This document shows positions 9,871-61,454 of a DNA stretch of 64,000 bases, in pieces; positions within the stretch are counted from its first letter, which is position 1; each line of letters begins with the position of its first letter. The notes beneath the pieces are model-generated. The model did not search any database, was not told the origin of the DNA, and saw nothing but the letters and a program-made list of their open reading frames with translations. Source of the DNA: Antedon mediterranea (Eukaryota; Echinodermata; Crinoidea; Comatulida; Antedonidae). A program made the translations under genes and the position numbers. Location of the stretch: assembly GCF_964355755.1 (NCBI RefSeq), contig NC_092678.1:8838922-8902921 (forward strand), in the 5' to 3' direction.

Positions 9871-10276
9871 TTAGCAAAATGTCCTATGTTTTAACATTAG
9901 CGCAAAATCAAAAAGTGCCCTTCCAGTTTTACAGTTTTATAACACGCGACACTAATGCATTCGAGTCACAAATGGATACGTTTTATCAATTTGTTGGTAT
10001 TTTGTTATTTTTATTCACGGGCCGATTTGATTGTTCGGCCCGGTGTATCTTTCCATTCGACATCATTATACCTTTGTTTGGCATGTTTAAAAATTGTATT
10101 GGCAAAATGCCCCAGCAAGAATTAGTAACACTGATTACAAATGGAATTCAGTAAACATTTGTTAAAGATAACATTATTTGAAATTGTTGTTGCCTTGGCG
10201 ATATGCTTAAAAACTACAACACTATGAAATGATTAGCTCGCAACAGCTTCTATTTGTTAGCTAAATTTTATTACAT

Positions 10277-10972
10277 ATGCTTAATATGGCTAATGTTGCT
10301 AAACTAAGCTATGGCAACCTTTTGGAATTTGATAGCCGTGAGACAGCCAGGTATAAATGTAGTCGAAAATCGGTTTTTGACGTTCAAAGTGAATTTGTTC
10401 CCACATCCAGGCAGTTAAAATCTATCAACTCAAGCCCACCAATGCAAACATCAAGGCGATGGAGGAGTGCCTCTGATGCATTTTTTCCGCAAGCCAGGTC
10501 TGGTAATGTCAGCCTACGAAAACTCTCTCTTTACTTTGGAAAAGATGTGCCGACATCAATGTGGTGGCGTTTTAAATTGGAAACCAAAAGTGAGAAAAAA
10601 GAAAAAGACATTACTATTGAGGAGGTACAGACATATCAAATTGAACCAACAATAACATTTAATTGCTCTGCCGTTGAGAGAATAATTGAGGAATCGTTAC
10701 ATGTTCATCTGGATGGTGAAGAATACAACCCTAAAACAGCTGGTGGATTGGTGAAAACACTGACGAACATAATTCAGTATCGTGTTAAATGTGAAAAGTT
10801 CGATAGGTATCGATTGATTGTACAAGTCTACCTAGGTCATCCACGTGAACACAATCTTGTCATTTCTAGTTCTTTTCTTATTGATAGTGAAAGAGACAGG
10901 TTTAGTAGGGCTGTTTTCTCCTCGCCAAGAATATTTGCTGTAGGTGTCGTATTTGGAGTGTACTTGGATTAA
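10277..10972 (+). CDS. Tctex1-domain (dynein light chain Tctex-type-like) protein, single exon
   Basis: 231 codons without interruption. The last ~115 residues form a Tctex1 domain: YQIEPTITF, then VERIIEESL, KTLTNIIQYRV, the strand RLIVQVYLG, and the diagnostic end FSSPRIFAVGVVFGVYLD before the stop. The N-terminal half is basic and Ser-rich without a known domain, as in the longer Tctex1-domain proteins. Members of the family bind dynein intermediate chain and act in cytoplasmic or ciliary dynein. There is no signal peptide. A second Met at residue 4 could also start translation. An AATAAA lies about 300 bases downstream. The absence of introns may mean a retrocopy, or this may be only the main exon of a larger gene. 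The family is fairly sure; the orthologue is not assigned. Confidence 0.8.
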   Translation: MLNMANVAKLSYGNLLEFDSRETARYKCSRKSVFDVQSEFVPTSRQLKSINSSPPMQTSRRWRSASDAFFPQARSGNVSLRKLSLYFGKDVPTSMWWRFKLETKSEKKEKDITIEEVQTYQIEPTITFNCSAVERIIEESLHVHLDGEEYNPKTAGGLVKTLTNIIQYRVKCEKFDRYRLIVQVYLGHPREHNLVISSSFLIDSERDRFSRAVFSSPRIFAVGVVFGVYLD

Positions 10973-17169: not shown

Positions 17170-20100
17170 TTATATGTCTCCTCGAGGGATGCATTCACCA
17201 TCATAATCCACCTCGATTTCCACCTCATTTTCACAGTTATATTTTAAGAGATTACATCTTGAAGGGTAACTGTTATTGTCTGTACCACAAACTGGTTCCA
17301 ACTCCAAAGGAGGACATGTGATCGTACATTTGGTAGGCTTGACGCATGCACCCTCATGCAATATACTTAATTTTAGATTATCGCATCGATTGATATTTTC
17401 CAGGACACAAACTGACGGATACGTTTTTCCATCATTTGCGCAAACTGGTTCAAAAAGGAGCTTACATGTGGGGTTAGCACATGAATCTTCTGTTGTCATC
17501 TGAGACTTTTTAGGAGTAGGAAGTGGTTCCGTACCATTTGGTTCTGGGGTGACTGTAATGTTGACAGTTGTACATGGACCCTCATATTCAATATCTAGGG
17601 TAGAATTGTCGGAAGTACACGCAACTTTTAGAAGCTTGCACTTGTTTTCATACGTATTTTCGTCTGTCCCACAGACGTAACTAATATCTTCTTCGCATTC
17701 ATCTTCTGGACAGTACCTAAAACCTTCAAGATTGTCTGTTGGGGGCTCAGGACTTTCACATAAGCCATAATAACTAATCTCAACTGATTGTTCAGTATTT
17801 CCTGTGCATTTACTAGCTTCAAAGACGCACGGACTTGGATAGCCTTTTCCATCAGTGGCACATATGGGTTCATACGTCAACGGACATACCTCTGCACAGC
17901 TTTCTTTTGTTGTTTGCAACTGAACTGGCGGGATTGGTTCAGTTACTACGTTAACTCGGTTGTCAATGCGACCATTTTCCCCCTCCGCCTGGATACGTGT
18001 TTTGGACCTAAATCTTTTGGTAGTTCTGGGTTGATTGGTTACGATTGCTGGGACTCTAGGTGGAGAATAGAAAAACGTCTTGGCATGACCTGTGAAGATA
18101 AGATAGTAATGGTAATAGTAGTTTGTCTTACACTCGACAAAATTCGAATAAACATATACCATATTAAGTGGAGTTGCCTAATGGTCACCACAAATGGTCG
18201 TATATGCCTATACTTGGGTTTTAGTTGCGATGTTTTGTCTGGGAGATTATGTAATTGAGTATGTTGTTTGAATTGATTTTGACAATCCATCTAGTATATA
18301 CATGTTCAGGTATATCATATCTTTTCCAATTATGTCTTTAGTTATATTGTACAGCTAGTTAGTTTATTGTGAATAATCTAATATCGATGAATTCAAGTTA
18401 ACATTAAAAATTGTTTCGGTTTGTACACCTAATCATTGGGGATCATGAAGAAAAAACTTAAGTAATCATATTCAATAGAGGCCTACTAAAAAAATTTTCC
18501 CGATAAAATCATTACTTTTCCCAAATTGAACTTCCTAGAGTGTAAGCGAAAGTGATTGGCGATCGTAAGTTTATATATTTTATTTATACTGAAATCCAAT
18601 AAGCGTGTGGGTTTATTGTGATTCATATTTGTTTCCCATTAGGCTTTAAAGATTGTACAAATGAAAAAGACCATTTGGGATTTCTCCTCCATGACGCATA
18701 TCACTAATAAAACGAACATTTCCATTGTTATTCTTATTTATGGAATTGATATTGTATTTACATTATGCTATTCGTTTTATATAATATACAGTAGATAGAT
18801 AGATAGAGATGTAATTTATATTTCACAACGCCTGATTCAAATACAACAAGAATGATTTTTGTTTTTTTTAATTATCAAAATATATCTAAAATGAAGTTTG
18901 ATTATAAAATGATTCATTTCAATGATATAATTGGATCGAGACATAGATGCCTTTTATGCTCTGTATTTTCAAGGTTTGAACAATTCGACAACCTATAGCC
19001 AAATTATGTATGTCGTCAAACCTTTTTAATATAAATAAGAATAATTTGAATTGAATACTGGCCAATTCCTGATAATGTCAATTCCTTAGAGTAAAGGTTC
19101 ACAGACATGAGTCAAACATATGGATATGATAATTCACCACGCATGCACTTTTCATTATCATTATTTTTTTCATTATTTTTCCCGGGATTAAAACGAAAGA
19201 TTGATGAATTAGTCAATTCTGCATTACACGGTTTTATTGAGAATTATGTGTAAACAATAAATAAACGCATATACATATGTATATCTACTTTTAAGAGGAT
19301 TGTCCCCCTGAAAAAATAATTCTCAACACAATTTTTGTTGAATATTTTAATTTAACATAATATTAATCCACTTCTAACAAAAATTGGGTAAAAAAATATA
19401 TTTACCTGAAAAACTGTAATTTAAAACAAACTGGCTGCTGCCAGCCAATGGGTTATTTGTTGATTTAAAACAATTTTTTTTTGTGATTTTATAGGCCTAA
19501 AGTGAAAACTTTGATTTTATTAATCTTAATTGTTTAAGTTTCTTCCAAGGTTTGAAGTATCACCCACTACTCATATTTAAATTAAACCGAATCTAGTTTA
19601 TACTGATTGATTGATCGCTATGCTCGGTAAACTCTGGTAGTGGTTAGTGTTTTTCAAAGACTGTTATTATAAATATTATCTCTTTGGAGAATATACTGTA
19701 AGCTCTGTCTAACTTTATGTGACAACAAAATGTGATATGGAGACGATGACATCATATCACTACCATATTTGGGTATATCACTACCATATTTGGGTATATC
19801 ACTACCATATTTGGGCACATCACACTTTGTTGTCAAATTAGTTTGACAGTGTAGACAGAGCTTTAGATGAGAGCGTATCTATTTGATTTGATCTGCGCGT
19901 GCGCGTGCATACATTGCAAACAGTGTTGTTCCGTCGGACAACACCGACCATGTAATTCTTTGTTACTCTCTGTAGACGTTTGCATGTCGATCTAAAGGTA
20001 CGGGTTCTTATCTCCGTCGGGTGGCTTAGAAATGTATTTATTTATTTATAAAGAACATATGGATAACATTATCTTTATATATAATGTTCTAAAAACTAGT

Positions 20101-25668: not shown

Positions 25669-28600
25669 TCATTCGTCTAATCGGACTGTGTATTTGCGGT
25701 TGACAATGTAAAGTTTAACCTTTGGTACACATTGTTTAACTTCAACGTCAACCAGTGTATTATCTCGTAAACTACACGCCTTCTTATCTAGTGCACACAA
25801 ACTATCGTATATCTTCTTATCGGAGCCGCAAACTGGTTTGTATCCGTCTTCTGCGCAACGCATATCCTCACAGGGGTCGTCTTTAACTCTCAGTCGACCA
25901 ACCATTGTGTCACCCGTCGGTTCAATCTTACACTCTCCTTCGTAGTCAATTTGCAAAAAGGGATTTTTATACAGACACGCCATCGATTCGATGATACAAG
26001 GGGATGGATAAGTCACACCATCAATACCACACACAGGGCTGTATTCAATTGGACAACCTTCCACGCACTGTACATCGCTGTTCGGATCATGCCGTGGACC
26101 TGGGCCGGGTAGAGGTGTAGTGTATATAGGTGGTACTGGGGTTGTCGAGACGATACAACTTCCACCATACCATACTGTTAAATCGATGTCTTTCTGACAT
26201 GCTACTGCGCGTAACACGCACGCACTCGGGTATGTGACGTCATCAGTGCCACAGACGGGATCGTATTCTAATGAGCATGTCTCGTCACATGGCGAAACCG
26301 TCAGTGGTGCTGTTGGTTGAGGATTTACTCTCGGTGCGCTTGTTGGTGGTCTTACTACAGTTGGTCTTTCTATTACTGGTCTTTCTATCGACGGACGTCT
26401 TGTAACTCGTGTAATTCTTCCTCTTGTTGATCGTACTAAAATAAAGAAAGAAACTTTACATTATTTTGCTTTGTTACAAAACATAAGCCCATGTTGTACA
26501 TTTGTAGCAAATTCAAAATCAAATAATAAAGTAAGGAATTAAGTTAAACTTTTACTCAGATGGAATGTTTGTATATCTAAGTTTCGTTGTTCTGGCCAAT
26601 TTTTTAAACATGTTTTACCTGTCAACATAGGTATATATGGACGCTGTGTTGGCTGAGGAATTGGTCGTGGTTGAGGTCGTGGTTGAGGCTGGGGCCGTGG
26701 TTGAGGCTCTGGTCGTGGTTGAGGCTGGGGTCGTGGTTGGGGTCGCGGTTTAGGTTTAGTCCTCCGCCGAATACCTCCGATAACTTCGGTTGCTGGTGGT
26801 ACATATATTCTTGTGACGCGCGGAATATTTGTTACACGTGGTCGTACAAGGTCGAGATCTGTATTGATCACAGCTATGTTTCCCTGAACCACTCCGTCTT
26901 CTTCATCAGACTCATCAGAGTTCATGATTGGTCTTGGCTGGGAGTTGATATAACCTCTTTGACGACCGTTACTGCGTAAATTTTGAGTCGTCCCACATGG
27001 TCCTTTTGATGCGACTGTTACTCCAGAGTTGCACTTAGTGGTTGTCAATTGGCACACAGACGAGTATGTTACTCCGTCTGTACCACACACTTGTCTCCCC
27101 GCCTCGCAATAATGTGTCAGATGACATTCTATAATATTAAAGTGAATGTTTACGTTATTTTGGATAAATGTTGGATAAATCATTACAAGCCCGCCCTATG
27201 AAACATAACCGTAATCATATCAGTATGCATCCGGTGTATCAAAAAACAACTACTGTACATACTTGTAAAATGACATAATAATAAATGATTTATTACTTAA
27301 TATTGTTATTTAAGGTAATGTTGACAGGTAATTATTTATGAAGTTTATAATACTATCCACACACATACACACACGAAGATCCATTTATGCAATCTAGATT
27401 AGTTTTGTAATAATTCATTCATCTCTGTTAATGTATTATATGTATTTTATTTTTGTGGTAATGAAAGGGTAACGATGATAATGATCAAAAATAAGAAGCA
27501 TATCTATGTTAACTTACGTGTAATGTACGGAGGACAACTTTCCTTAAGATAAATGAACTTAGATTCATTGTTGATACATTTACTTCGTTTAAATTCACAC
27601 CCATTTCTGTATGTTCGTAAGTCGGAACCACAAACTGGTTTGTACTTGTTTCTACACTGAGTTGGACATCTATATTGTACGTTTGTATATGTCGCGACTA
27701 CTTCTTCACCGTCATTATCATTGTACCTTCGTGGACTAAAGTACCTTGTATACCCTGTGCAAAAAAAGGAAAACATTTTTTTTTAAATAGCGTAAAAATA
27801 AAAAATAAAAATTAGAAATAAAAATAGATTGTTTTCACCATTGTATTGAGAAACTTGAAAGTATGTGATGATGTAATTAATTTTCTTGCAAATCAAATAC
27901 ATTAAGTAATATATTACATAATATCATATATACATCATTTTAATTATCCACACCATATCATCATCATCATCGTCATTAAGTTATGTATAAATTGTTTATC
28001 ATCACCACAATGTTCTCGAACTAAAATTATGGTCTATATAATATCATCCCTTTTTTCGTAACAACACTGCCATCATTCCACAAACGTGTTTCCACGAATA
28101 ATGATGAACAGTCTCCTCACGATTGACCTTTTTATAAACGCTTAAGTTTAACCAACTTTAGAAGTTGTGTTATGGGTATACCGTTACTTCGAAGATTATG
28201 TAGTGACGTTTAAGCAGAAGGAAGCGGATAATTTCCACCTTGTTAACTTATTTAGTGAATAAATTCACAAACTGCTATGCCGTATGGTTTCAAAATCGTA
28301 ACAACATTTCAAACGTAACTCTGACTTGCTCAATTGAATTAGCTAGGACTTTACTAAAATAATAAATAGAAGACTATTAAATATATACAGATTATCTTTA
28401 GATATTGAAGGATTTAAGCTAAAGAGAAAGCCCATCAATCATATTCTATAAAACTGTACAATTTGTCTTTAAATAGTCAACTAGATGTTGTTCTCATATT
28501 TGACAGACAACAATATAATTATTTTAATTCTTATGCAAGGTATTTTGTTTAAATATGTATGTAATCATATTTTAAATCAAGTTAGAACGTGTCAAAATGT

Positions 28601-31074: not shown

Positions 31075-33602
31075 AATTAATATGCTACATTTTGAAATGA
31101 AACCAAGCAATCTGCTTGCTTTAAAACATATAAAATTAACTTGTGTATGACACGACAACAAACTATTTACATATACACCTAGAAATTTAAATTCTGTAAC
31201 TTCAGGAATATTGTCTTATTCTATGGTATAATCCCAGTTAACTATCTCTTTACATCTTGTAACATGCATTACTGCGCATTTGACAGGATTTAAGGGAAGT
31301 TTGTTTACATTTGCCCATTTAGCAATTAAATCTAAATCCTTTTGAAGCAATTTACAATCATTATTGTTATAAATAGGACGTGATAATGTGTGATCATCAG
31401 CAAATTGAAAAAGTGAAGAAGAAATATTATTTACAATATCACTTACGTAAATAAAAAATAAAAGAGGGCCCAAAACTGAGCCTTGTTGTACCCTGAAGTA
31501 ACATTTACCCACTCTGACTTTTCTCCTCTGTAAATAACCCTTTGGCGTCTATTTGAAAGAAAATCTGTAATCCATGCATTAGTGTTTCCACCAATGCCAC
31601 AGTTATTAAGTTTCTTAATTAATCTTTTATGAGACACCTTATCAAATGCAGACGAAAAATCAAGAAAAATAATATCAATATGTTTACAGCCTTTAAGTTC
31701 TAAGCTCTGTGCCCATGAATGAAAAACCTTTGAAAGTAAAAGTTCAGTACTATACATTTGTCTAAACCCAAACTGATTTTCTGAAAGGATATTATTATAT
31801 TCTAGATATTCCCTTAAGCGATAACAAAGCAATTTCTCAATAATCTTACAAATTATGGGAGTTAAAGACACTGGGCGATAGCTTTTCATTTCGTCTTTGA
31901 GTTTTACATTTCTTTTGAAAATAGGTACAACATTTGCATCCTTCCATTGTCTTGGTAAAATACCTTTTTGTACAGTTAAATTAAAGAATGTACATAAAAC
32001 ATTAGCCAATTGTGCCTTACATGACTTTAGGAATCTTGGAAGCAAGCAATCAGGTCCTGGTGATTTGGATAGGTACAATTAACTGTGAGAGGGCATAAAA
32101 TACCTCAGGCATCACAAATGGTTCACATTCAAAGTTGGTAAGACAATCTATTGTATCCAAATCACAATGCTGATCATTATCTATGCAAAAGTTGTTTACA
32201 AATTGTGTGTTGAAAAGATTAGCCAACACCTTAGCATCACCATTGTGTTATTTATCTTAAAGCTAATAACATCTGAGTCATTTTTTATAGACCTTATATA
32301 CGCCCAGAATTGTTTTATATCAGTTGTAGCTTTGTTTGAAATATTTACAACATAATCCCGATGGCTACAATATATTGACTTTTTGAATTCCCTGCTACAA
32401 GATTTGAATTTAGTTATGCTTTCTTCAATTCCTACTTGTTTAGCCATTTTGTACAACTTTCTTTTCTTTGTACAAAGCTTTTTGATATCTGGAGTTATCC
32501 AGGGAAAAGATTTCGATTTTTTACATTTCTTAGTTGGTACAGATTTTTATATTGCAAAATTGATATTACTGGAAATACTTTCCCATATTTCACTAATATC
32601 ATTAAATTGAAAACAATTCTCCCAATTAAAATTATCTAATATAGTGTGCATTTTTGAAAAATCAGCTTTTTTAAGAGCATATACCGTTTTAGTTATGTCC
32701 TTAGCACGTTTATACGACACTTTAACAGAGATCTCAACTGCTTCATGATCACATGATTCAAAATTATAAATTTTACGACATTTTTCAATCAGTAGTGGAT
32801 TAGAAACAAATACTAAATCTAAGAAATGTCCTTTACTATCACGTGTAATATACGATGGTTGTTTTAAGACTTGAACTAACCCAGCAGAATCTGTTGCATC
32901 TAAAAAAACATTCGCTAGGCTAGTTAAACCACTACTTTTATCTACCTGTATATCATTCCATTCAATATGTATATTAAAATCATCAATAAGCGAAACCCAT
33001 TTGTACTGAGTCATTTTTCTTTGTACTTTTTCTAAATTGGTATATAAAGCATTTGTGTATTGAATATTGGAAAAACTATCTGCTTGATAAACGCTAACTT
33101 TATTTTAATTGTATAGGTGTATTTTAAATTGTGTTACACAGAAATACTAAATAATTAAATTTTTTATATAATCTGTATATTTTATATTAATTTTAACTTG
33201 TATTAAGTTGTATGTTACAGGGGTTGCGGACACAAATGTGTTATGGCGCTCTGTTGCTGTCGCAACCCCTGGACCGCTTGTTGTCGAATAAAGAAATGAA
33301 ATGAAAATGAAAAAAATGGTGGTCTGTAATATACACCTAATAAGAATTTTCCCAATACCAGTGTAACACTCTAACCACAATAACTCAAGTATATTATCAT
33401 TTAGTTCATGACACTCAGATGGTTGTAATGATGTTTTTACAGCAATAAGTACTCCCCCACCATGTGAGTTTCTATCCTTTCTAAAAACTATATAATCGTT
33501 ATTAAATATTTGACTATCATAAATGGAATTGTCAAGCCATGTTTCTGTCATAGATATAATATCATAAAATGAAGAATTAAATCGAGAATTTATATCATGC
33601 AA
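31075..33602 (-). pseudogene. LINE ORF2: endonuclease and reverse transcriptase, broken
   Basis: The endonuclease start (SMTETWL, GGGVLIAVKTSLQP) lies at 33600-33330, then YYRPPFF in a shifted frame before the insertion. The rest (IDDFNIHIEW, GHFLDLVFVSNP, SCDHEAVE) is at 33014-32547. The reverse transcriptase runs from SPGPDCLLPRFLK (about 32070) through YRPVSLTP, NQFGFR and IIFLDFSSAFDKVSHK. A frameshift near 31500 separates it from QGSVLGPLLFFIYVSDI and the catalytic FADD. The last match is FKFLGVYVNSLLS (about 31190) and KASRLLGF. In life it would nick target DNA and copy the element RNA; here it cannot be translated whole. Confidence 0.85.
33100..33316 (+). mobile_element. Nested 3' end of another non-LTR retroelement
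   Basis: Inserted in the endonuclease of the minus-strand LINE but in plus orientation. It contains a hairpin (CAGGGGTTGCG at 33218-33228, CGCAACCCCTG at 33261-33271), an AATAAA at 33287-33292, and a tail of gaaatg-like units ending in A's. LINE protein similarity resumes immediately on either side. It is short and 5'-truncated, as expected for target-primed reverse transcription. Confidence 0.8.
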
Positions 33603-33842
33603 CTTATATTTAACACTTCTTACATTGCAATAGAATATGTTTAGCTTGTTTTTACTATCAGAACCTAATTTTGAATCTATCTTAAAATCACTTTGGTTTA
33701 CATTATTACTTAAACTATTATCATAAGTACATTCAGCATTAATAATTGGTTGTCAAGCATTAACATTGAATATATTTACATTTCTTTCTTGATCATTTAA
33801 CACCATTAAGTTTGTGTCGGCTATATCTTCTTTGCCAATAAC

Positions 33843-34870
33843 TCAATTTCGCATGTCTTGAACTTGGCATAGCTTTGCTTTATGTCCACTCTGCTTGCAT
33901 TTCCAGCAGGTAACTGGACCTCCATGCCGACACCCTCTATGTGTATGGCCACTTTCGCTACAGTAGTGACATCGAACATTCGCTGATTTTGTGCGCTCTT
34001 GTCTCTTTACTGGGAAGAGAATAGACACTACTTTATTGATACGCTTTATCAGTGTAGATGTTCCATATTTGTTAAGGTGGAGACCATGGCGTGTAAATTT
34101 GGAAGCATCATATCCTTGCTCGGAAGAGAATGCCAGAGTGTGGTCTATAAAACAATTTCCATAAACTGATTTCAGAATCTTATTTGCTTCTAGCACTCTC
34201 ATATTTATTTCTGGATCATCCAAACGCGGGCAAATACTTCAAACATAGATGTTACCAGATGTTTTATGCCTCAAACGAACCATAAGATCACTGAAATCCT
34301 CCTTTAACTGATCTAATTTAAAGTTCAGCTCACTGCAATCATTTGTGCCAACGTGCAATATGACATTGTGTACTTTGTCCAAATCCATTTGATCCAAAGT
34401 ATCAGAAACCTGAGTTGTGATAGCACCGCGTAGTGTCTTCACTGCTGTGTCACACAGACCCTTAGTCTTGACTAATTTCAGCATTGAGTCGCCAATTATT
34501 AGATTTCTTTTATTCTGTATGGTAATATCAGACTGTAATTTTTCAGCTGCATGATTTTTTTCAGAACCTAAGGCTGGAGACTCAAATAACTAATTCTGTA
34601 AAGGATTAAAAGAGTTGTGTAGTGCAGTAGGCTGTGGGTTTGACTTACACATTACAGAATTGCTAATGGGATGAGAAGCTGTATGAAACTCCTTTTCTGT
34701 TGTTAATAAAGCTTGAAGGCCGGTAATCTGAGTTTCCAAAGAGGCATTTCGCTCACATAGCTCCTTAAAAGATGATGCAAGCTGAACGAAATTAGAGTTA
34801 ACATCTTGGTACTCTTGCAACTTCCTTTTAGATTCAGCAATTTTGTCCTCACAGCTTTTAATCTTGTTCT
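33843..34870 (-). pseudogene. LINE ORF1: coiled coil, SGNH esterase-like domain, two CCHC knuckles
   Basis: Minus strand: a coiled-coil-like part at 34820-34600 (SSFKELCERNASLETQITGL). Then the esterase motifs IIGDSMLKLV (about 34500), HVGTND (about 34350) and GLHLNKYGTSTL (about 34080). Two zinc knuckles follow, CHYCSESGHTHRGC and CWKCKQSGHKAKLC, ending near 33850. The esterase GDS and HVGTND blocks are intact, but stops split the frame near 34225 and 34580. In CR1 elements ORF1 is an RNA-binding chaperone whose esterase role is unclear. Confidence 0.8.
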
Positions 34871-41733: not shown

Positions 41734-42981
41734 ATGAAACTACTGGTATACGTGTTAGTGTTTGCGTGTATTTGTACACACGTCCGTGCTCAAATTTGGT
41801 CTAACAGGTGGTTTCGACGTAAGTTTTTCCTTCTTTCATTTTGTGAAAATTGATTATGCTTTAGTTTAAATTTAACTATTTTAATTACAAATAATAATAG
41901 ATAGAAAATAGAATATCATCCAACTTCAAACAGTGTCAATTCAATTTGTATTCAGGTTCAAGTTGGTTTGACAACTCATGGAATACTGGTATGCAACCAC
42001 TCAATTCCTGGTCTACAGTACCAAATGACGGATGGTTTAATAACAATTGGAATGCACAACCAGTTGGATGGTCAGACAGTTGGCGTACTGGTACCATACC
42101 CACGGGTTGGACAGGTACTCGTGATAGCTGGTATCAATGGTATAGTTGGTACAGCTGGAACTCATGGCAAGGTGCACCACGTGGTGGCTTACCTTTTTCA
42201 AGAACGGCCCTTATTCAAGGAACTTCACCGGAAAATTCAATTAATAATGGTCCACGTCGACCAAATATACCCCGTCAAAACAGACCAGAAACTGCACCAA
42301 CGCAAAACAACCCAGAAACTAGGCCTACACTTACCATCCCAACTACTCGCACCAGAAATCAAAGGGGTGAAAGCGGGAGACAAAGGTCATCGTACCGTAA
42401 CAAGCGAAATATTGATAACATTCCTTCGATAGCCAATGTGATCGATAAGTTTGCGCGTGAACCAACTGCTCCTGTTGACGTCTGTCCAAGCACATACACA
42501 CCACTCTGTGGTAACGACAACCATACTTACAGCAATGCATGTGAGTTGATAAAGGCTGCTTCAACTAATGCTTGTCTTGATTTTGCTTATGAAGGTGAAT
42601 GTAACAGTCAGAGTAAGTTATAGTTGAAGTTTTTTAATAATCTAGATGAAGAATGGTTAACTAATAGGTTAAAGGATAAAAAATATCTAATACAAATCAT
42701 TATGCCATTGTTATTATTATTTTCATTTATGTATTATCAACATTTTTGTAGAAGAATTAACATGTTTTGATTGTCAAGAGGAAGACGCCCAACTCGATAT
42801 AATTACCAATATGGTTTCACCAGACATCGAATGGTTGACCTACAGTATGGTAGTCTGTGGAACTGATGGAAACACCTACAGTTCACTTTGTCATCTGTGT
42901 AAAAGCAAATGCTTAAATCATAGCGAAAAACTTCGACCAAAACATAGAGGGCACTGTGGCGCTCCGTTTGTGTTCAACTAA
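41734..42981 (+). CDS. Kazal gene 3: secreted Trp-rich protein with two atypical Kazal domains
   Basis: Three exons inferred, phase 1: 41734-41818, 41956-42612 and 42755-42981, giving 322 residues. Exon 1 is a signal peptide (MKLLVYVLVFACICTHVRA). Exon 2 starts with about 75 residues rich in Trp, Ser, Asn and Gly (WYQWYSWYSWNSW), then a Pro/Asn/Arg linker with a dibasic RNKR, then a Kazal-like domain VCPSTYTPLCGNDNHTYSNAC that lacks C1 and has a shifted C5. Exon 3 carries a second Kazal domain (VCGTDGNTYSSLC) in which 27 residues separate C2 and C3 instead of about 7. The exon 3 acceptor must be the second AG of tagaag, because using the first gives an early stop. An AATAAA lies about 245 bases after the stop. 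The function of the Trp-rich part is unknown. Confidence 0.82.
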
Positions 42982-48886: not shown

Positions 48887-50748
48887 TCAGCATTCCCCAC
48901 GATAATCTAAATCTAAATCAGGATTTGCCGTACATGCAAGTGCATTTAATACGCATAGGCTTGGATATGTCACGCCATCTGTCCCACAGACTGGGTCAAA
49001 CTCCAGAGGGCATGATTCTCTGCATAATTCTGTTGTTGTCGTCGCATTTGTTGGAAGATCGTAACTTTCTGTTGTGACTGAAATTTCGAACATGGTCGTC
49101 TCTGGAACATCTGATTAAAAACAAACAGGTTCATTCATTCAATATGGAACGTTTATATATTCACTTTATTGCCGTCTGCAATAATATAACTAAGTCAGGT
49201 TAAACATTTCTGTTGGTGTAAGTTCAAGTAAAAACATCAAAACAATTTCCACGAAATTGTTCACGCATATTATATTTTTTAAACTTGCAAATGATGAACA
49301 TACATTAATGAATAAATTAATGTTTATCTTTTTATTTTTAAAATACATGCGCAGGGACAGGATTTATTCATATCTAATATTTTGAATACGCCGAAAACGC
49401 CAAAGTATTCAACTAACCTGTATACACTTCTGGTGTCGTCCTGGGTTTTACACCCTCTATCTGGGTAGTTTGTGGTATGTCTGTAGTAGGCTGTACCTCG
49501 GTGCTAGTTTCTTCTTCTTCGCTTTCATCTGAGCATGGGTTTTTATCAACAATTGTTAGTCCTTTGTTTAGTATGTTTAGCTGTTTAAGTTCACACAGCG
49601 TGTATGTCTTGCCGTCAGAACAGCACACTTCGATTGGTTTAACTTGTCTTTTTCTACATTCTGACAACAGAAATAATAATATTATAATTACTTTTTTGAC
49701 GATTTGTTTAAAATTTTTTTTAGTTTCTTATATTTTAATTATACATCCAACAACCATTGGCAAATTACAGAATGTTATAATAAAAATAGTAGTTAATTTT
49801 ATTCAAAACGACTAAACTAAACAAAAAAGCCGTCTTACGTTGTCTAGTAGGGCATCTGTGATTTGAATCAATTAGAAATAATGACTCATCACTCATTCCT
49901 TTAAAATCACGAAGTGAGTAAGTCCTTAAATTTGAAGCGCAAATTCTTTTAATTCGTTTGTGTCCATGTTTTCTGTTTTCACCTCTTTCATCGTCGTCTT
50001 CTTCACTGTCATCTGACAAACAAAAACAATATTACTTATATGATCTAAACTGTATATTGTAAATCAATTTTAATCGAAATACCCATTCAGTTAATATAGC
50101 AGGTATATTGAAAAAGAGGAAATATAGGCCTACTCGTTAATACTATATTGAAAATAAGTAGGAAACCCGCATAAGTATTTTTATATATCTAGATATTAAG
50201 AACATAAAATAAAATTTCGATTGCAATTTCTTTTTGATATTGATTAACTTAGACCATAGTAATAAAAACTCGAGTTTTCGAAAGGTACCATTTTTCTTGA
50301 AATTTCTTTTGGATAATTAAAGTATGAAAAAGTCGTTTTCTTTTTGACAATTAACCAACAGTGTCTAAGCATACTTAAAGTGTTGATATGTACAGATACT
50401 ACGGTGCGTTAATACCAATAAGCATCAGCATTTTGATAATCCGGGCAGATAAACAATAATGACAACATCCTTAACTTAAAACAGAGACTCTCAATGCCAG
50501 AAACAATGGGTTAAAATGAAATTAAATAAGCCTGGCTTCATGTGCGAGGTCATTTGAAACATAGATTTCGACATGAAATAAAATTAATAATAAATACATT
50601 CATGCAATAATTCTTTATCTATTATTAGCCCTTATATTGTATTACAAATTAAGTAAGCCTCATAAATTATTGACAAACCTGCTTTTGAAAATTGTACTAT
50701 GGTAGAAAGGCAGAATAACAAGATCAGCGCATGTATAACGACGTCCAT
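48887..50748 (-). CDS. Kazal gene 4: secreted acidic protein with degenerate and canonical Kazal modules
   Basis: Four exons inferred, all phase 1: 50679-50748, 49839-50012, 49418-49660 and 48887-49110, giving 236 residues. Exon 1 is a signal peptide (MDVVIHALILLFCLSTIVQF) ending GCAG|GTTTGT. Exon 2 has an acidic start (DDSEEDDDERGE), a basic stretch, then a Kazal-like core RICASNLRTYS with only two cysteines. Exon 3 has VCCSDGKTYTLCELKQ, a Kazal core lacking C1 and C5 and with an extra Cys, then a Glu/Thr-rich linker. Exon 4 has a canonical Kazal domain (CRESCPLEFDPVCGTDGVTY) ending at the stop right after YRGEC, with Leu at P1. Exon phases and domain order match genes 1 and 2. Probably only the last domain is a working inhibitor. 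Confidence 0.83.
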
Positions 50749-51775: not shown

Positions 51776-52968
51776 TGTAGAGTTAAAAATATCATAGTGT
51801 CAAAACCGAACAATCATAACAAATATTAAAAACATATATCATTTACAGTTAAAATGGTTCATGTGTATAATTATATTAAAGATGCCTGCTAGTCTACAAG
51901 ATCGGAGAGCTGTCACAAATGTGTTAAAACTAAATAAAGAATGTTCCCTAATATAATTAAGAAAATATTGCCATGCACGGGAAAAATTAGTATACAATGA
52001 ATATTTAAAAGAATTTGTTTTGCCATGTTTGTGTTTAATGATGTATTGTCCCTTTGACCAATTCCAACAAAATTTTAAAAAAAAAACGATTTCGAAAAAA
52101 GTGGGTCATTTTGACGTATCATAATAGTTATTAACTTTCACCAAAAATTAGTCGAAAAAAAAAATCATTTAACTGAAATACAGACGTTTTTTTGTTCAAA
52201 AAATAACTTTGACTTCCAGTCAAAGTTTTCGATCAAAACATATCTCATAATGCAACGCGCTTGTTTGGCTACTCTGTAAACATAATCATAAAATTTCCTC
52301 GCGATCACCTTCTCAACCGTGACGAGTTGTAAACAATCTTAATTAGCATCATGCATAATGCATACTCGTGGTTTGAAATCTTTGTTTACTTTCGCTCGCG
52401 ACGATTTTCCAGACGAAATGTAATCAAATTAATTTACCTGTTAATTACGTAAACTTGTTTTTAGCTCGAATTTTCGACTTAAAGTGAATAACTTTATTAT
52501 TACTTTGATATGGCCAATTTAAATTTAGAATATTTTGACCTTCATTTTTTGTGTTTCAACGAAAAATACATCTTTAAAGAAAACTGATTCAGTATATCTT
52601 GGATTAAAATCAACCAAATCATGAATAAATATAAACAGATAAGAAAATACACTCTCTGGTCGATAGATGGTGGTATATGTAAATGTTCGAGCTGCTTCTC
52701 AAAATCCACAAAGTTTTGTGATCATTCGAAGAGGTGTGTTTATAATAATAGTCTGTTCTTATATAGCGCATATAAGCAGGCTCTCAATGCGCTTAATGCT
52801 ATTAATATGCAGGACCCCTAGTATATCTAACACGTGAGGTATATCAAACATTTACTGTTTTATTCGAAACGTGATTGAAATACATTTTTGAAGTAACCCT
52901 CAACCCAGTCTTCATCTTATAGACCTATGTATTATGTAACTATTATATTAGGCTTATGATATAAGGGT
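51776..52968. other. Intergenic, no gene recognised
   Basis: A 66-codon plus frame at 52621-52821 ends in a repeat-like stretch (tatagcgcatataagc) and shows no domain. Homopolymer A runs occur near 52078 and 52156. Confidence 0.4.
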
Positions 52969-54351
52969 CGCGTCATCACGAAAGGAGCCTTGTGTCGCAA
53001 AAGCTATATTGCTATAATTAGCTTTGAAAGTTGGAATAGTCAATTTTGACTGAAAATAATTTTTTTTTTTTTTACATATTCGACATATTCAACTATTATA
53101 GTTTACTTTTCCTTAATTATTAAAACTTAATTTTGTTCCAAAATACATAAATTTTGACGTTTTTATAGACAATGTTGTAAGGTTTTGTGTGGAATTCTGA
53201 CGATTTCAGTCGTAAACGGCCAAAAATCTACCCTATTTTTCAATCGAATGTTCTCGGCTTTCCAACATTAGAAACCCGTCACAACTGGTATGGTTTTAAA
53301 GCTTGAAACGTCATCTTTCAGAATATCATGAATAAACATTTGTATTTGCAATCATAGTCCAATCACAATCACTTTTATAAAGGCTTCGGCCTTAGATACA
53401 GCCAAACAAAAGGGACTAATCGCGTCCTCTGATTGGTCAATCACATGTGAGCATGCGTAGACGTATTGTTTACTTCCTTGGTAAGCTGTTCGCACGAGGT
53501 TTACAGTGTGCTACATTATTGTCCTACTTTCGTGTTATAATTTACAATCTTTTAATAAACTATACTATAATTCTTTTGCATCATTCGAATTAGTAGTTTG
53601 ATATAATTAATAGAAATGTCTAATTCTGATAATGAACGATCGGAAAAAGTCATAGCTGACGCTTTAAATGCTGGCCTTCTTGCTAATGCTGACGATGCGG
53701 CCCGGCCCCTGTTCAGCGACTAGGCCTACATACATTCAGGATTTTTTTACTCGGTGAGGGGCTAAAGAAAATGGGGTAAGTGAAGATGATGATGAGGATA
53801 CTAAAGACTGGATGGGGATAGACGAAGATTCTTACGGCGAGGATAGTTATTGAAAACGAATAAGAATGTGTAAGAATTTGTATAGGCCTAATCATGATCT
53901 AGAGTAGAAGTGAGTTATGTTAACAGATTGTGTGCTCAAAATAATCCATTAATCAACATAATTATGCATTTTTAATTGTTGATTTTATATATGAAGATGA
54001 TAATAAAATTGAAAGAAATTAAAGTGTAATCTTTATTCGTATTCATTCTTTAAGTGTGTAAAATTTCATGTAGATCCATTAATAATAACTAATGGTATCC
54101 AAGGAGAATGTGTTGTGGATATTGAATAGAACCAATGTAATGGTCCACTGAACTTCAAAGGCTGTTTTCTAATTGTTGATAATCTATTGAATTCGGAAGT
54201 GCTTTGTTGAAATCGGGTCATATCTTAATTGCCTTGAAAGAAATATAAAGCAAGTTACATATTTTTGGAAAGCTTAAAGAATGGAGATTAATATTATAAT
54301 AATAATAAAAAAATTTTAATTTCAACACAAGGCTCCTTTTGTGGTGACACG
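52969..54351 (+). mobile_element. DNA transposon derivative with inverted ends and acidic ORF remnants
   Basis: The left end CGCGTCATCACGAAAGGAGC and the right end (54325-54351, reverse complement CGTGTCACCACAAAAGGAGC) match over 27 bp with three differences. Inside, CCAAT-type words (near 53360 and 53437) precede an ATG at 53616. The frame MSNSDNERSEKVIADALNAG ends with a stop at 53723. A second frame, SEDDDEDTKDWMGIDEDSYG, ends at 53853. Both are acidic and look like the two ends of a transposase with the middle deleted. Family not determined. Confidence 0.6.
53616..53853 (+). pseudogene. Remnant N- and C-terminal ends of a transposase-like ORF
   Basis: N-terminal piece at 53616-53723 (36 codons including the stop) and an acidic C-terminal-like piece from about 53768 to the TGA at 53851-53853. 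The catalytic middle is absent. No family motif is left, so the assignment rests on the flanking inverted ends. Confidence 0.35.
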
Positions 54352-54528
54352 AATTAAATTTCATTTAATGATTGTTAAAAACCTTCAAACAATTATTATC
54401 AAATACATAATATTCAAGTTACCACATAAAAGCGGTGACATGTATATGTAACATGTATTAACTACAATTATCAATTTATCTTATTTTCCTGTTTAAAAAA
54501 AAAATAAATAACATAGATTAGTAAAACC

Positions 54529-54536
54529 TATATATA
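54529..54536 (+). promoter_or_regulatory. TATA-like box for Kazal gene 5
   Basis: TATATATA about 56 bases before the ATG at 54592, in an AT-rich context. Confidence 0.35.
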
Positions 54537-54591
54537 TTAAGCAGCAAAAAATATAACAATTTATTTGTGTCAGGAAAGATTTTGAAACAGT

Positions 54592-57500
54592 ATGAAGTAT
54601 ATAATCTTACTCGTAACTCTGTTGGCTGGAACTGCTAATTCAGAAAGTTTGTAACAATCTTTTATCTTACTGTATTGTTTTAAGCTAATTAAAACATTTA
54701 GTATGATTGTATGTCATATCTTTATGTTGTTTATATTATTTTAATGCAATGTGTGCTGGACTCTGTATTTTATGGCTACAAAGATTAGATACATTGTATG
54801 GGTAGTATCAGGGAAGAGTGAATGGTAGTATTAACTTTGTTTAAGTGATATTAATTAATAATGAAGTAACATTACCCTTTATATAGTACCTTTACAATGA
54901 TCAAAAAGTAAAAATAACCAGATATGATTCCAATAATTCAATCTGTAACTGGATATAGATTGATTACATATCATATCACACGTAATAACTATCGTTAAGT
55001 TTGTCAGAATGACACCATCTGTGAGAATGGAGCAAGTTGTGTAGGAGCACTGCGAAGTACAATATATACTTGCCAGTGTACATTTGAGTGGCAAGGAATA
55101 AACTGCAATGAACCTTTAATACAGTTCAATATTCGAAGTAAGTACATTTTATTAACATTATTTAAATACTTTACAGTTTTAATAAATAATGTTATCTATT
55201 TTTTTTTTAATATGCCTTTTCAATGATACATAATAGTTATACACTTTGACACAAAATTAAATCGCGAAAATATATATACCAAAATACTGTAATTTAAGGC
55301 AAAACATAATTGATTTTTGGCTAAATATATCTGTTTACTTCTTATAAGTGAAATCAATATCTGAGTTTTTCTATCTAATTAAATAACTTTATCACAAATT
55401 CAAAATGGCCTATTTAAAATCTGATTTTAATAATCTTCTTGCGCTGTTCATGTTTTCGGAGACAATACATTTTTAATCATTGCTGTACCATTCTATTCCG
55501 CACTTTTAACATTTACATTTATTTATAGGTGATGGTTTTTGCGGATACAATCAATATGAAGACCAAGGTGTTATAGAAAGTCCAAACTTTAACAACTCTG
55601 ATACGTACGAAAACAATCTGGAATGTTACTACCTTGTTCGTGTCCACAATGCTCAACAAATTACATTTACAATAGAATCTTTTGAAACAGAAGTAAGTGG
55701 CTTACCCTTTTAATAATATAATATACAAGTTGTTGTATTACCGACGAATTACCAAGATGTAACATGTTTCAAGTTCATGATCAGAGGCGTAGGCCGGTTG
55801 CTTTCTGGGTTGGGGCGATGGGGGGGGGGGAGATGTGAACACAGTAAATGTGAAACTACGCCCCTGATTCTTAGGCCTACCCCTAAAGGTCACGTCATGT
55901 CAGTGCAGCCAATATGTAAGGCGCTCTCTTATCTGTCCACACGTCAGTGGCTATGTTAACTAGCACACCGGAGCAACCTCCTACTCTTCCCGAAAGATTA
56001 CTAGGCTTTGTTACACTAGATTCTCGTACGGTATTAATGATAATAGTTTGCTACATCTATTTCTGTTTCACATGACTTACTGTACATATTTCCTGGAACT
56101 TGAAAAACACCTTTTAACTCATAAAATAACTACAATTACAATCAAGACACTAAGAACTTAAATGTTTTATCATTATATCAATTGTAGATTAATAAAGATT
56201 ATCTGGAGTATGGGCAAGGATATTCCAAGAGCAGTGATTATTATTTTCTGGAGGGTAATATTTCTTCCGCTACCACCTTTACTATCAATGGAAGCTACGC
56301 GTGGTTTTACTTTTTTACTGACTTCAATATGCAGAGAGGCGGGTTCTTCATCACGTATATAGCAGGTAAAATGGTCACTATTAATATAAAATGTTGTATT
56401 AAAGATGTCGATGTAGGCCTACATTTTGATCTTATTAATGATGGGATAGTGATTTGTCAGCAATTAATATCAAAATATACATCTTATTGATATTACAGAT
56501 TATAACGAGGACAGCTATGGTATAATGTAAGCCTGGCCTATAGTATTGAAAGAATGCATTTATGAGTTATCTGGTATAAATAATTTTAAGAGGTGAAAAT
56601 ATGACTTTTCATCTTTCCCGAATGAAATTATTTGTACCATAGCACGAATATAAAAACATTTATTATTTGTGTTTAGTATGTTCATCGTCACTCGCGACAG
56701 GGAGATCGATCTTATTATCTAATTATTATCTTATTATCGTGGAGGTCACCAGTAGTTCCGGGTCTTCAACCGGTTAAGAGTGATTCACCACGCTCTCGCT
56801 GGAGTATGCGCAAAGTAGCGTTGTTATGGTGTCGTGTCGTTATGGGGGTTGGGCTGTCCGGCTTCATCCGGGAAAATAAGGTGATTGATAGGGAACATAC
56901 TTTTTACCATGTGATCCACAATCTTCCAATCAAATAACAGGAGCTCTTTAAGTAGTAAACCAATACTAATTGTTAATATATACTGTATCATGACTATTTT
57001 GTAATATTTACTTAACATTTTTTGAAAACCTGGACAGTTATTTTAACTCCCGTCACGCCATCATTGGCCTAATAGTTTAAATTTATCAATCTCGATCTAA
57101 CTAAAACTTATTATTTAATTTCACAAGACTGTAAATAAACCACAAAATGACTTTTCAGATATAAATGAATGTGGATCCAATCCATGTGAAGCTGGTGAAA
57201 TATGCACTGATGGAAATGGAACGTACACGTGTACATGTCCAGAAGGCACCCAAAGACCTGGATGTACACGTAAGTGCTCAACCACAGATTCTAATATGCA
57301 GTACTTATTTTATAGTTTCGCATGCGCTTGCACACGGTTAGGCTGATTGTATTGTAAAAATTGTCTAGTTAACAGTAGGCCTAATTATTAAATCGAAGCT
57401 ATAAACCTCCCGAAAAGAAAGGAGGAGCTTTTTAAACACCGAGTCAAAGCAGGGAGTTGTAAAATAAGTCCCTGGTCAAAGTTACGCTTACTACAGTTTC

Positions 57501-59603
57501 TCTTGTTGCCAAAATCGGAATCCGACACCAATTTAAAAATAGCTTATCATTAATTTTACTGTTAATATTAATGTGCGTATACATATTATATCAGTGACGT
57601 CAGTAACTGATTAAATGCATAATTATTTTAGCCTGTACAAGTGAAGGATGTCATAATAGATTGCGATTGAAGTGTGCAAGTGATGGAAGAACTTATCGAA
57701 ACAGATGTTACCTGAATCACGCCGCCTGTCTTGATCCTACTATCAGGATAATATCACGTGGACCATGTAGAAGCTTTGGTAAAACGACAGGCAGATAGAT
57801 AATCATTTTCCTCTGGAGTTATATAACAAACTGACATTTTAAATAAACACAACAAAATTCTATTTTAATACCATTGAATCAGAGACATATATTAAATAAT
57901 TGTGCATCATTCCCATGTTTACGATATCATGCAAAGGGTAGAGAAAAGAAATGTAGCGCCCTCTTAAAGATGTGTTGTCCCCCAAAAACATGAAACATGA
58001 AGATTAATTAATTCAGACTTTGAATATTTTATTTTGTAGTTTTAATAAAGGTAATCACTTCCATAGAAAAAAAACGAAAAATATAATGTGTTCACTTGTA
58101 AAATAACAAAATAAATGGTTCAATTCAATCAAAAATCTATTAGTAGCAAATTTGACAATTTTTTGCTTTAAACTACATTTTTTTCAGGTAAATACATTTT
58201 TTTTCTCGATCCAATTTTTTGTCAAAATGGGTACGTAACTATTATGTTACATTAAAATGGAGTAGGCCTATTCAACAAAAATTTGTTTTAAGAATTATTT
58301 TTTCAGGGCGACAATACATCTTTACGTTAAAAAACATATACAAACTGCATTTACTTCTCTTGCCAGATGCTAATTTTAATGGAGTATGCCATTCTAAAAT
58401 CAAGATAATTTAATAATCGTTAAAGATAATAAGACATATGTTCAAAAATACTTTTCTTTCTCTAGGTACATTTGAAGTAATAGGAGGCCCTCGCATTTGT
58501 TTGGGAATAGAAGACAGTAGTAGTAGTGAAAGTTTTGAAAGAACAATTTGTCCACCCACTCAAGGTAATTCGGACTATGAAAATGCCTTTATCTGCAAAT
58601 AATTTCATAATTAAATTATTTGTACCATTGCATTATTTGTTTGATAACACACTTAATATGATAACAGGCGAAACATATTCTAAGGCCTAGCTATGACTAC
58701 ATGGGCTTGGTTAGACTACATAGGCCTAGTTAGACTACATAAGCCTAGCTAGACTACATAGGCCTCACTAGACTACATAGGCCTAGTTAGACTACATAGG
58801 CCTCACTAGACTACATAGGCCTAGTGCACCTGGCAACTGAAACTGATCTGATGCAAATTCTGTTTCTAGTTCTTTTATAATTTTTCCCATTGATTAATAA
58901 CAAAAATTATACGATCTGAAGCTAATTTTAAAGTGCATACATATCGCTCGATAAAAACGGTTCTAATTTAATAGTATTTTAACAAGAAAAATAGATGACG
59001 CCGCACAATATGTTTTTTAAATGAAAAAATAGTAGGCCTATCACACAATACAATGCGTCTAATACTACCGTCAATTGAACGCCATGTGATCCAGTGACAA
59101 GCGTCTAACAGTCAAATGACAAGAAATATTTAGGTGATGTGTTATATATTTTATTATCATATTACCTAATGTTTGTTGAGATATCTATATTAGTCTATTT
59201 AGAAGATTTATTTCAGATTTGACTCAACAACGTTAAACACTGCCTTTTTATGTTAGATAATTATTACTTATGAAGCATCCATTCATTGTTTCTTATTGAC
59301 ATTGCTATTTTTATTATTGTTGCTATTGTTATTATCATTGTAGCACCGACGAGTGAAGCAACAACTGTGAATGATATGCCTACTACCACAGCAACTGAAG
59401 CAACAACTGTGAATGATATGCCTACTACCACAGCAACTGCTGCCATTGTATGTCAAAATGAGTGCCCTCTTTCATTTGAGCCCTTGTGTGGCGGTAATGG
59501 TGTTAAAAACACAACTTTTCCAAATATATGTGTATTGGAAGCTATAAAGTGCAACAATGACCCAGAATTAACTGTTATACACGAAGGTGAATGTATAGTT
59601 TAA
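54592..59603 (+). CDS. Kazal gene 5: secreted EGF-CUB-EGF-Kazal-Kazal mosaic protein
   Basis: Eight exons inferred: 54592-54646, 55000-55137, 55529-55692, 56188-56365, 57159-57269, 57632-57778, 58466-58564 and 59344-59603, giving 383 residues. Junctions are phase 1 except the one inside the CUB domain (phase 0). Exon 1 is a signal peptide (MKYIILLVTLLAGTANS). Exon 2 is an EGF domain with six Cys (about residues 20-54). Exons 3-4 form a CUB domain (GVIESPNF, YENNLECYYLV, DYLEYGQGY, GGFFITYIAG). Exon 5 is a calcium-binding-type EGF (DINECGSNPCEAGEICTDG). Exon 6 is Kazal 1 (KCASDGRTYRNRC). Exon 7 is a short linker. Exon 8 has a repeated Thr-rich linker and Kazal 2 (CPLSFEPLCGG). EGF and CUB modules mediate protein contacts, so the inhibitor may be anchored to a complex or matrix. 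An earlier stop after exon 6 may give a shorter form. Confidence 0.88.
55782..55866. mobile_element. 85-bp MITE with CAGRGGCGTAG ends in intron 3 of gene 5
   Basis: Ends cagaggcgtag and ctacgcccctg are inverted with one difference. A CAGGGGCGTAG terminus is common among hAT-type miniature elements. The interior has a poly-G run. Confidence 0.5.
57842..57847 (+). terminator. Intronic poly(A) signal after exon 6 of gene 5
   Basis: If the exon 6 donor is not used, the frame continues GKTTGR to a TAG at 57796-57798, and AATAAA follows 44 bases later. Confidence 0.5.
58682..58824. repeat. Minisatellite of about 20 bp in intron 7 of gene 5
   Basis: About seven units of gactacataggcctagttag with variants (cctcacta, cctagcta). 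Confidence 0.85.
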
Positions 59604-59738
59604 CGCTGACAACATATTACTGTATGATTTTTATTCATTTCTATGTGTGCCTATTATAGGAATATATCAATGAACATTTTTGTTTAATTAACGTTAAAAT
59701 ATTAAATCAAGTATAAATTTATTCAACCATATCAAAAT

Positions 59739-59744
59739 AATAAA
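59739..59744 (+). terminator. Poly(A) signal candidate for gene 5, long form
   Basis: AATAAA about 136 bases after the stop at 59603. Confidence 0.5.
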
Positions 59745-60107
59745 TTCTAAACATGTGTACAAAAATATTGGCGAGGGCGATTATAAGAGAGAAGCTCGTT
59801 TTGCGGTCACCACCCATGGTGCTGAGACACTACATAACATAGTGATACTATTATTATAAACTCGATTATATTTCTTTTGAAATGAAAATAATTAATTGTT
59901 ATTAAAATAGTCTATTTTAGGTAATCTCAACAATAACTTATTTACTGACACTTTAATAAAATCTATATAGTATACAGTTTTTCTTTTGAATAAAACTAAA
60001 TAATATTCTCAATATTTCTATTTTTTAAATATAATAATACCACATTTATATAGCGCCCTTTTCGTGAGTAATCATGCTCAAGGACGCTTTACATAGTACT
60101 AAATGGT

Positions 60108-60157
60108 AAATAAAAATAATCAGTAAATATAGGCCTACCATAACCAACCAACCATCC
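60108..60157 (+). repeat. Left flank of an inverted repeat around Helitron-like copy 4
   Basis: aaataaaaataatcagtaaa, taggcctaccataaccaacc and accatcc recur as the reverse complement at 61476-61530. The sequence just before (tatagcgccc to gacgctttaca) looks like a LINE or SINE end. Confidence 0.8.
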
Positions 60158-60161
60158 CAAC

Positions 60162-61454
60162 CTCGCTTCGCTCGCGTACCATCTAGGTCGTGCCCACAGA
60201 TGGTTCTCGAATACACAGTAATTTCAGGGTAAAAAATCTGCCGATTTCAAATGCACGTACCGCAGGACTATAATAATACATTGTCGTTTACAGAAACGAA
60301 TAAGTAGACACAATGATTTATGTAGTCAAACAAAATTAGCACCCTGGGAATTACTTCCGAAAGAGAAACTTACCACAAAATAAGTCCAAATTGTTTATTC
60401 ATTTAAAGAAACCCAATTAGGGTTGAGGGATTGGAAAGAGGATAGGTACAAAGAAGAACAATTTTTAAATATATTCTTTATCCACATCAGTAACGAAATA
60501 TTGTTTTCATTTTTTATAGGCCTATAAATAATATACCACTAACGGTGACTAAATATAGTAAAACATTTGCGATTTAATACTTTGTTAAAACTGTCACTGT
60601 CATAGTCGATTGAAATAGTAAAGTACATGTAACGATACACCACTACGACGTTTATATTTTTTGTAATTATTAATTAATGCAAACGTTGAGAAGCAACTGT
60701 CAGTAATAAAGTTTATTTGTATATTACGTGTGTATATATCTAACAGTAGAGCCTACCCATAATCACAGTAATAAAGTAAATACTAACAGTATTCACAGTA
60801 AGAAATGTTTGTATATATCTTTTTACATCTAACAGTATTCACAGTAAGAAATGTTCGATTCAAATGACAACCAAAAATGGTTAATAGGTAGGTATTTGCA
60901 GTACTGTATTGTCAAAGTATTGCAAGTTTATTCTCCAAGGGCTCATAAATTTACCTACTTGTGTTAAACAAAACTGGCAGACTGAGAGATTGGAATGTTC
61001 CATTCATCGCAAATCAATACATTTGTAAAAACGTAAATTAAATCTATCAAAATAGTATTTTTTAAAGAAAATCGGCCTGTCTTCAACATTATGATACTGT
61101 ACTCGAGCAGTTCAACCGGTTTTCAGCTATTAAAAACAATTATCGTAGGAGGAGATAGGAAAATGCGAAGCGTCCTCGTATTATTGTGTGCGGGTATTTT
61201 TCAAGTTGGACATCCATTAGACAGTGTATACCACGATCGAAAAACACCCCTATTTGGGGCAAATCGTTGAACCTAAATTCGTTTTAATTGTCAATAACTA
61301 ATTATCTAACTCAATTTAATTAGTAAACAGGGTTACATCAGGTGGTTAAAATCAGTACCGAAAGTACGAACCAACTTTATATACCATCGAGTAAAAATTC
61401 TAGAAGTAAGGCGCGATTTACCGAATTTTGCCCTTACGTAAATCTATATATAGA
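60162..61454 (-). mobile_element. Helitron-like non-autonomous element, copy 4, 3' end truncated
   Basis: On the minus strand it starts TCTATATATAGATTTACG after A at 61454 and runs to the 3' hairpin. The hairpin is cut after the left stem and loop (CTAGATGGTACGC, GAGCGAAGCGA), so the final CTAG is missing. It matches the other copies along its length. No coding. Confidence 0.8.

Follow-up and report, generated by a model that had tools for sequence, protein, structure and literature searches.

In fibropellins, an EGF module precedes the CUB domain. These proteins of the sea-urchin apical lamina (uEGF) start with a C1s-like domain at the N-terminus and also carry EGFs and a domain resembling avidin, and no protease is named in the portion of the description drawn on here (PMC10336842). 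A gene predicted in a 64,000-nucleotide stretch of contig NC_092678.1 of the crinoid Antedon mediterranea (the whole analysed stretch, termed the window) is comparable in its 5′ half. The EGF-CUB-Kazal gene, at 54592-59603 on the + strand, has a putative product of 383 amino acids with the architecture EGF-CUB-EGF-Kazal-Kazal. It is like fibropellins, so far as that description goes, in that it is apparently secreted and has a CUB near the N-terminus joined to EGFs (PMC10336842). The fibropellins being taken by description, the differences are that one EGF follows the CUB here vs up to 21 there, and that Kazals are found at the C-terminus in place of the avidin-like domain. A Pfam profile search of the whole 383-residue protein, with a limit of E 1, returned seven families, and neither a protease nor an avidin domain is among them; by the same search, the protein is unlike the CUB-EGF proteases (C1r/C1s/MASP, tolloid) in lacking a protease domain.

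The 3′ half resembles other systems. The multi-Kazal inhibitors rhodniin, dipetalin and infestin and the sea-anemone elastase inhibitor are like the second Kazal by sequence, and rhodniin is like the first Kazal too; none of these inhibitors is known to have an EGF or a CUB. Agrin, follistatin and TMEFF/tomoregulin combine Kazal with EGF in secreted or matrix proteins, with no known CUB and in other module orders, and the presence of a CUB sets the 383-residue protein apart from them. In the skeleton of Patiria miniata, PMI_025317 is placed with CUB-and-sushi proteins in one table and with Sushi/Kazal proteins in another, and an echinoderm protein may therefore combine the two domain types CUB and Kazal; compared by these entries, it differs from the 383-residue protein in having Sushi domains and no stated EGF (PMC5460417). 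New combinations of EGF and Kazal modules are to be expected, as one survey counts Kazal_2, EGF and EGF_CA among the 30 most promiscuous human domains, CUB not being among the rows of the ranking used here (PMC4224354). The preliminary description of this DNA had called the domain order unfamiliar, and among the open-licence papers listed by full-text searches pairing Kazal with CUB no described family was seen to have this order; the coverage is that of a paper search and not of a proteome search.

The best explanation, to which we assign a probability of about 70%, is that the gene encodes a secreted 383-residue mosaic in a Kazal cluster, whose fibropellin-like EGF-CUB-EGF front, carried on phase-1 exons, was acquired or else retained in this gene alone. 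That the architecture belongs to a single gene is a prediction from genomic sequence that we consider highly probable. The exon chain, domains, intron phases and neighbouring Kazals can be read directly in the DNA.

Rebuilding the gene from the window sequence gave the same result as the preliminary description, a 383-amino-acid open frame with stop from eight exons at 54592-59603. Exon 1 (54592..54646; all exons are on the + strand) has the start codon and a likely signal peptide (MKYIILLVTLLAGTANSE), called by hydrophobicity only and found by a scan for hydrophobic starts, and it ends in phase 1. Exon 2 (55000..55137, phase 1-1) encodes the first EGF-like domain, C20-C54. The CUB is encoded by exon 3 (55529..55692), which carries its first half with C69 and C97, and by exon 4 (56188..56365), which carries the second half. 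The calcium-type EGF, residues 179-214, is found in exon 5 (57159..57269, phase 1-1) and the first Kazal, C217-C261, in exon 6 (57632..57778, phase 1-1). Exon 7 (58466..58564, phase 1-1) encodes a Ser/Glu-rich linker, in which C276 and C293 are the two cysteines, and its best other match within the window reaches only E 3. Exon 8 (59344..59603) consists of a Thr-rich linker, the second Kazal (C334-C381) and the stop; an exact 42-bp unit is present twice in the linker, at 59355 and 59397. The order signal, EGF, CUB, calcium-type EGF, Kazal, linker, Kazal, as it was first proposed, is thus borne out by the exon chain and by the domain searches.

All seven introns, of 353, 391, 495, 793, 362, 687 and 779 bp, are GT-AG. 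Read in the two alternative frames, the joined exons are interrupted by 21 and 41 stops, and the G+C content is 39% in exons vs 31% in introns. Six of the seven introns are in phase 1 and coincide with module borders or lie close to them, the final one falling within the linker; the sole phase 0 intron is inside the CUB. A TATA-like stretch, TATATATATTAAG, is located ∼55-60 bp 5′ of the start codon, and poly(A)-type signals are found 3′ of the stop at 59701 and 59739. Such AATAAA/ATTAAA hexamers say little, as 30 are present in 53001-60600.

The domain assignments rest on several types of evidence. Pfam CUB matches residues 69-176 with E 5.3e-14 (52.9 bits vs a cut-off of 21.4), and Pfam Kazal_2 matches with E 1.4e-10 (41.6 bits for the whole protein vs a cut-off of 22.8) in two stretches, the stronger of which is the second Kazal (334-381). 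Kazal_1 (20.0 vs 21) and Kazal_CFAI (23.1 vs 27.7) are below their cut-offs. The second EGF carries calcium-binding and hydroxylation patterns (DINEC; C-x-D-x4-Y-x-C-x-C) and matches the EGFs of Notch and factor X in PDB, with a whole-sequence E of 9.6e-11 for Notch 1. The first EGF is supported by its cysteine spacing and by an EGF pattern. When the EGF spacing pattern was applied to the 1467 six-frame open reading frames (ORFs) of at least 25 amino acids in the window, two matched, and these are exons 2 and 5 of the gene. Both Kazals display six cysteines in Kazal spacing. The first matches rhodniin in PDB with a whole-sequence E of 8.6e-6; the second aligns with rhodniin and the sea-anemone elastase inhibitor, and follistatin and agrin are also among its PDB matches. 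The PROSITE Kazal pattern matched neither Kazal of the 383-residue protein.

The CUB matches 17 distinct PDB sequences at E 0.01 or better, namely those of cubilin, Kremen, neuropilins, PCPE-1 and TSG-6, with cubilin and Kremen as the top matches. Three residues, E119 (where exon 3 ends), D123 and D164, may bind calcium; each stands opposite an acidic residue in the first CUB of cubilin. The CUB-EGF pair, together with the acidic positions common to this CUB and a cubilin CUB, might suggest, in line with the preliminary description, that the front competes for the partners of CUB-EGF proteases such as those of complement or the tolloids. We consider this very improbable, in that the order here is EGF-CUB-EGF vs the CUB-EGF-CUB of C1r/MASP, and in that none of the 17 PDB sequences, which represent solved structures only, is C1r, C1s, MASP or tolloid. 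That same count, and the fibropellins with no protease named in the portion described (PMC10336842), weaken the contrast that had been drawn initially between this protein and the CUB-EGF proteases.

We infer that the exons are transcribed as one unit. The alternative is that two adjacent genes, one for an EGF-CUB-EGF protein (exons 1-5) and one of the Kazal cluster (exons 6-8), have been joined on paper only. By itself the 3′ half resembles a neighbouring Kazal locus (locus D, below), and phase-1 border introns let any such exons join in frame; intron phases cannot decide the matter, as this phase-1 symmetry at the border would also suit two neighbouring genes. Read-through of exon 5 leads to a stop at 57344, followed by ATTAAA at 57387 and 57610, and an in-frame ATG is present upstream of exon 7 at 58438. 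Against the poly(A)-type signals stands the frequency of these hexamers given above, which leaves them little weight, and a good donor, GTAAGT, with a score of 4.1, borders exon 5 on its 3′ side. In addition, the intron between the halves, from exon 5 to exon 6, is only 362 bp, and exon 6 lacks a start codon throughout its open stretch. A signal exon for a separate Kazal gene was also sought by scanning for hydrophobic starts that end in a phase-1 donor; the scan, which did not demand a good donor, recovered exon 1 as a control and gave no candidate in introns 4-7. The scan gives 112 candidates in 128 kb (both strands), a rate at which intron 5 would hold ∼0.3 and introns 4-7 together 2.3. As so few are expected by chance, the absence of a signal exon is mild evidence for one gene. 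Taken together, two genes appear improbable.

The window also has Kazals in four other loci, to which the preliminary description of the gene does not refer. A window Kazal model was seeded with eight window domains, two from this gene and six from its neighbours; these eight match it by construction, and Pfam serves as the independent test. Outside the EGF-CUB-Kazal gene, the model has 12 matches of at least 27 bits, six of which are its own seeds, all in the four loci, and seven of the eight neighbour ORFs are above the Pfam Kazal_2 cut-off, one being below (18.9 bits vs 22.8). As other Kazal loci share the window, the 3′ half of the gene is simply explained. The exon borders of the neighbouring loci were chosen by eye.

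Locus A (17173..18177, −) has four Kazals in one ORF. The ORF ends in RGDI (17173-17190, −), a potential C-terminal integrin motif, and a weak Kazal-like match upstream of the locus at 20661-20581 (−), with 12.1 bits and E 0.013, may be a further exon. Locus B (25672..27782, −) displays five Kazals with Pro-rich linkers and represents one gene or more. Locus C (41901..42981, +) consists of a Trp-rich repetitive stretch and two Kazals. Its ORF at 41901-42450 (+) has Trp/Asn-rich repeats (WFDNSWNTG, WYQWYSWYSWNSW) before the Kazal, which by eye suggest a matrix or mineral protein. Locus D (48890..49660, −) has two likely exons, 49660-49418 (phase 1-1, a weak Kazal) and 49110 to the stop (linker and Kazal). 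The weak Kazal, at 49533-49628 (−), has fewer cysteines and a Pfam score of 18.9 bits, below cut-off. A degenerate Kazal-like exon was also seen by eye upstream of this locus at 49835-50012 (−), near 49960, where the model gives 4.3 bits, a chance level; both may reflect decay or a changed role.

The neighbouring loci and the EGF-CUB-Kazal gene may be organized alike. The most pyrimidine-rich acceptor is in phase 1 in six of the eight neighbour Kazal exons, and phase 1-1 Kazal exons are readable at 27754-27518 in locus B and at 49660-49418 in locus D. The last exon of A, B and D consists of a linker and at least one Kazal and ends no more than 19 residues after the last cysteine. Phase-1 Kazal exons with a final linker-Kazal exon are found in the EGF-CUB-Kazal gene and are readable, with the borders set by eye, in A, B and D. 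Exon 8 and the last exon of D are 39.7% identical over 78 columns of linker and Kazal (E 4.3e-13); this score, like the other exon 8 match scores, is raised by the Thr-rich linker because the low-complexity filter was off. The first Kazal has at most 38% identity to any other Kazal compared. By the spacing pattern and single-sequence phmmer, no EGF or CUB was found elsewhere in the window among the 1467 six-frame ORFs, with Pfam run on ten, so that a divergent copy is possible. The best non-self match has E 0.39 for CUB (8.4 bits, 52333-52449, +) and E 0.7 for EGF, and we attribute the two to chance. The 3′ half therefore looks like an ordinary member of the local Kazal cluster, and the 5′ half looks like the distinguishing part of the gene.

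A number of observations weigh against the mosaic reading in one or another of its parts. With respect to the gene model, the exon 1-2 junction has the worst splice score (donor GTTTGT, −3.5; acceptor −8.5). Scores below zero are also found for the donor of exon 6 (−2.1) and for four acceptors, those of exons 4, 5, 6 and 8; the splice scores derive from approximate matrices and serve only to rank junctions. With respect to the domains, the EGFs are below the Pfam cut-offs for EGF (17.8 vs 21.5), EGF_CA (16.8 vs 27) and hEGF (21.2 vs 29.3). A typical CUB has four cysteines; this one has only two (C69, C97), as does the aligned stretch of Kremen. Of the three acidic positions, the second CUB of cubilin and Kremen keep D123 and D164 but have no acidic residue opposite E119. 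The second Kazal is extended by an insertion of three residues and carries a sequon at N353. With respect to kinship with the cluster, the acceptor richest in pyrimidines is out of phase 1 in B2, C1 and exon 8 of the gene itself; for exon 8 the gene model takes the second-ranked one. Exon 8 also matches locus B (38.9% of 90 columns, E 2.2e-10, with the filter likewise off), and the second Kazal reaches 47% identity with a domain of D and equally with a domain of A. A tree of 15 short Kazal domains has no well-supported branch among its 12 inner branches and so does not trace the individual Kazals to their origins; it gives only a slight indication (71/93) that this gene's two Kazals belong to different groups.

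The function of the protein depends in large part on the reactive loops. The P1 residue of a Kazal is two residues after the second cysteine, and by position we take it to be Leu in the second Kazal (C-P-L-S) and Asn in the first (C-H-N-R). A Leu at this site suits enzymes of the chymotrypsin, elastase or subtilisin type. The first Kazal is doubtful as an inhibitor, as an Asn at this site is poor for most enzymes. By the same rule, the putative P1 position is Leu or Ile in five neighbour Kazals (A1, A3, B3, B4, D3). A role as a matrix-held protease inhibitor may be proposed with a chance somewhat short of even. A different role, that of a structural or adhesive protein of skeletal or epidermal matrix in which Kazals are disulphide modules and not inhibitors, is tentative and on balance doubtful. 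The putative Asn of the first Kazal is consistent with it, as are the Trp-rich and Pro-rich stretches in the neighbours, the Kazal matches of the cluster with fewer than six cysteines within the ORF, and the presence of Kazal-domain proteins in echinoderm skeletons, as listed in the portions of the studies used (PMC4336488, PMC5460417). Set against this are the Leu or Ile residues of the five neighbour Kazals and the second Kazal itself, which retains six cysteines and a loop with Pro at P2 and Leu at P1 that aligns with known inhibitors.

On the simplest reading, phase-1 exon shuffling joined an EGF-CUB-EGF cassette to the 5′ end of a Kazal-cluster gene. As a matrix-held inhibitor, the protein could work as follows. 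The EGF-CUB-EGF front would bind a matrix or cell-surface partner, with calcium assisting, and the Thr-rich linker would space or tether the second Kazal near the bound partner. There the second Kazal, with Leu at P1, would block a chymotrypsin-, elastase- or subtilisin-like serine protease, and the first Kazal, with Asn at P1, would be a spacer or a weak inhibitor. A more specific proposal, unlikely as it stands, is that of a lineage-specific matrix-anchored inhibitor, produced when a gene of the tandem Kazal cluster captured a fibropellin-type front, with calcium-dependent docking at an apical or skeletal matrix site. If true, matrix-anchored inhibitors formed by fibropellin-type capture would be a family so far undescribed. 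The preliminary description had suggested a scaffolded inhibitor; this putative role is a fair idea, and the interpretation as a whole is partly supported.

Should the single transcript be real, the locus would show exon shuffling in clear form with the probable relatives close by, as the shuffled gene and Kazal loci devoid of EGF or CUB matches lie within ∼42 kb, and would provide a testable idea of how protease inhibitors become placed in animal matrix. The surprise is modest, since both the domains and the mechanism of shuffling are familiar.

Other features are present in the window. The palindrome TAGGCCTA is dispersed, with 39 copies found vs 0.41 expected under a first-order Markov model, and a 19-bp minisatellite at 58683-58824, in intron 7 of the gene, likewise includes AGGCCTA. 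A LINE-like element at 31219-34589 (−) has several ORFs, including a reverse transcriptase at 31446-32078 (Pfam RVT_1, 8.4e-19) and an ORF at 33846-34238 (−) that by eye displays CCHC-like knuckles. An open frame at 10265-10969 (+) encodes a Tctex-1 domain (Pfam 7.4e-18) and represents a gene of the dynein light-chain type.

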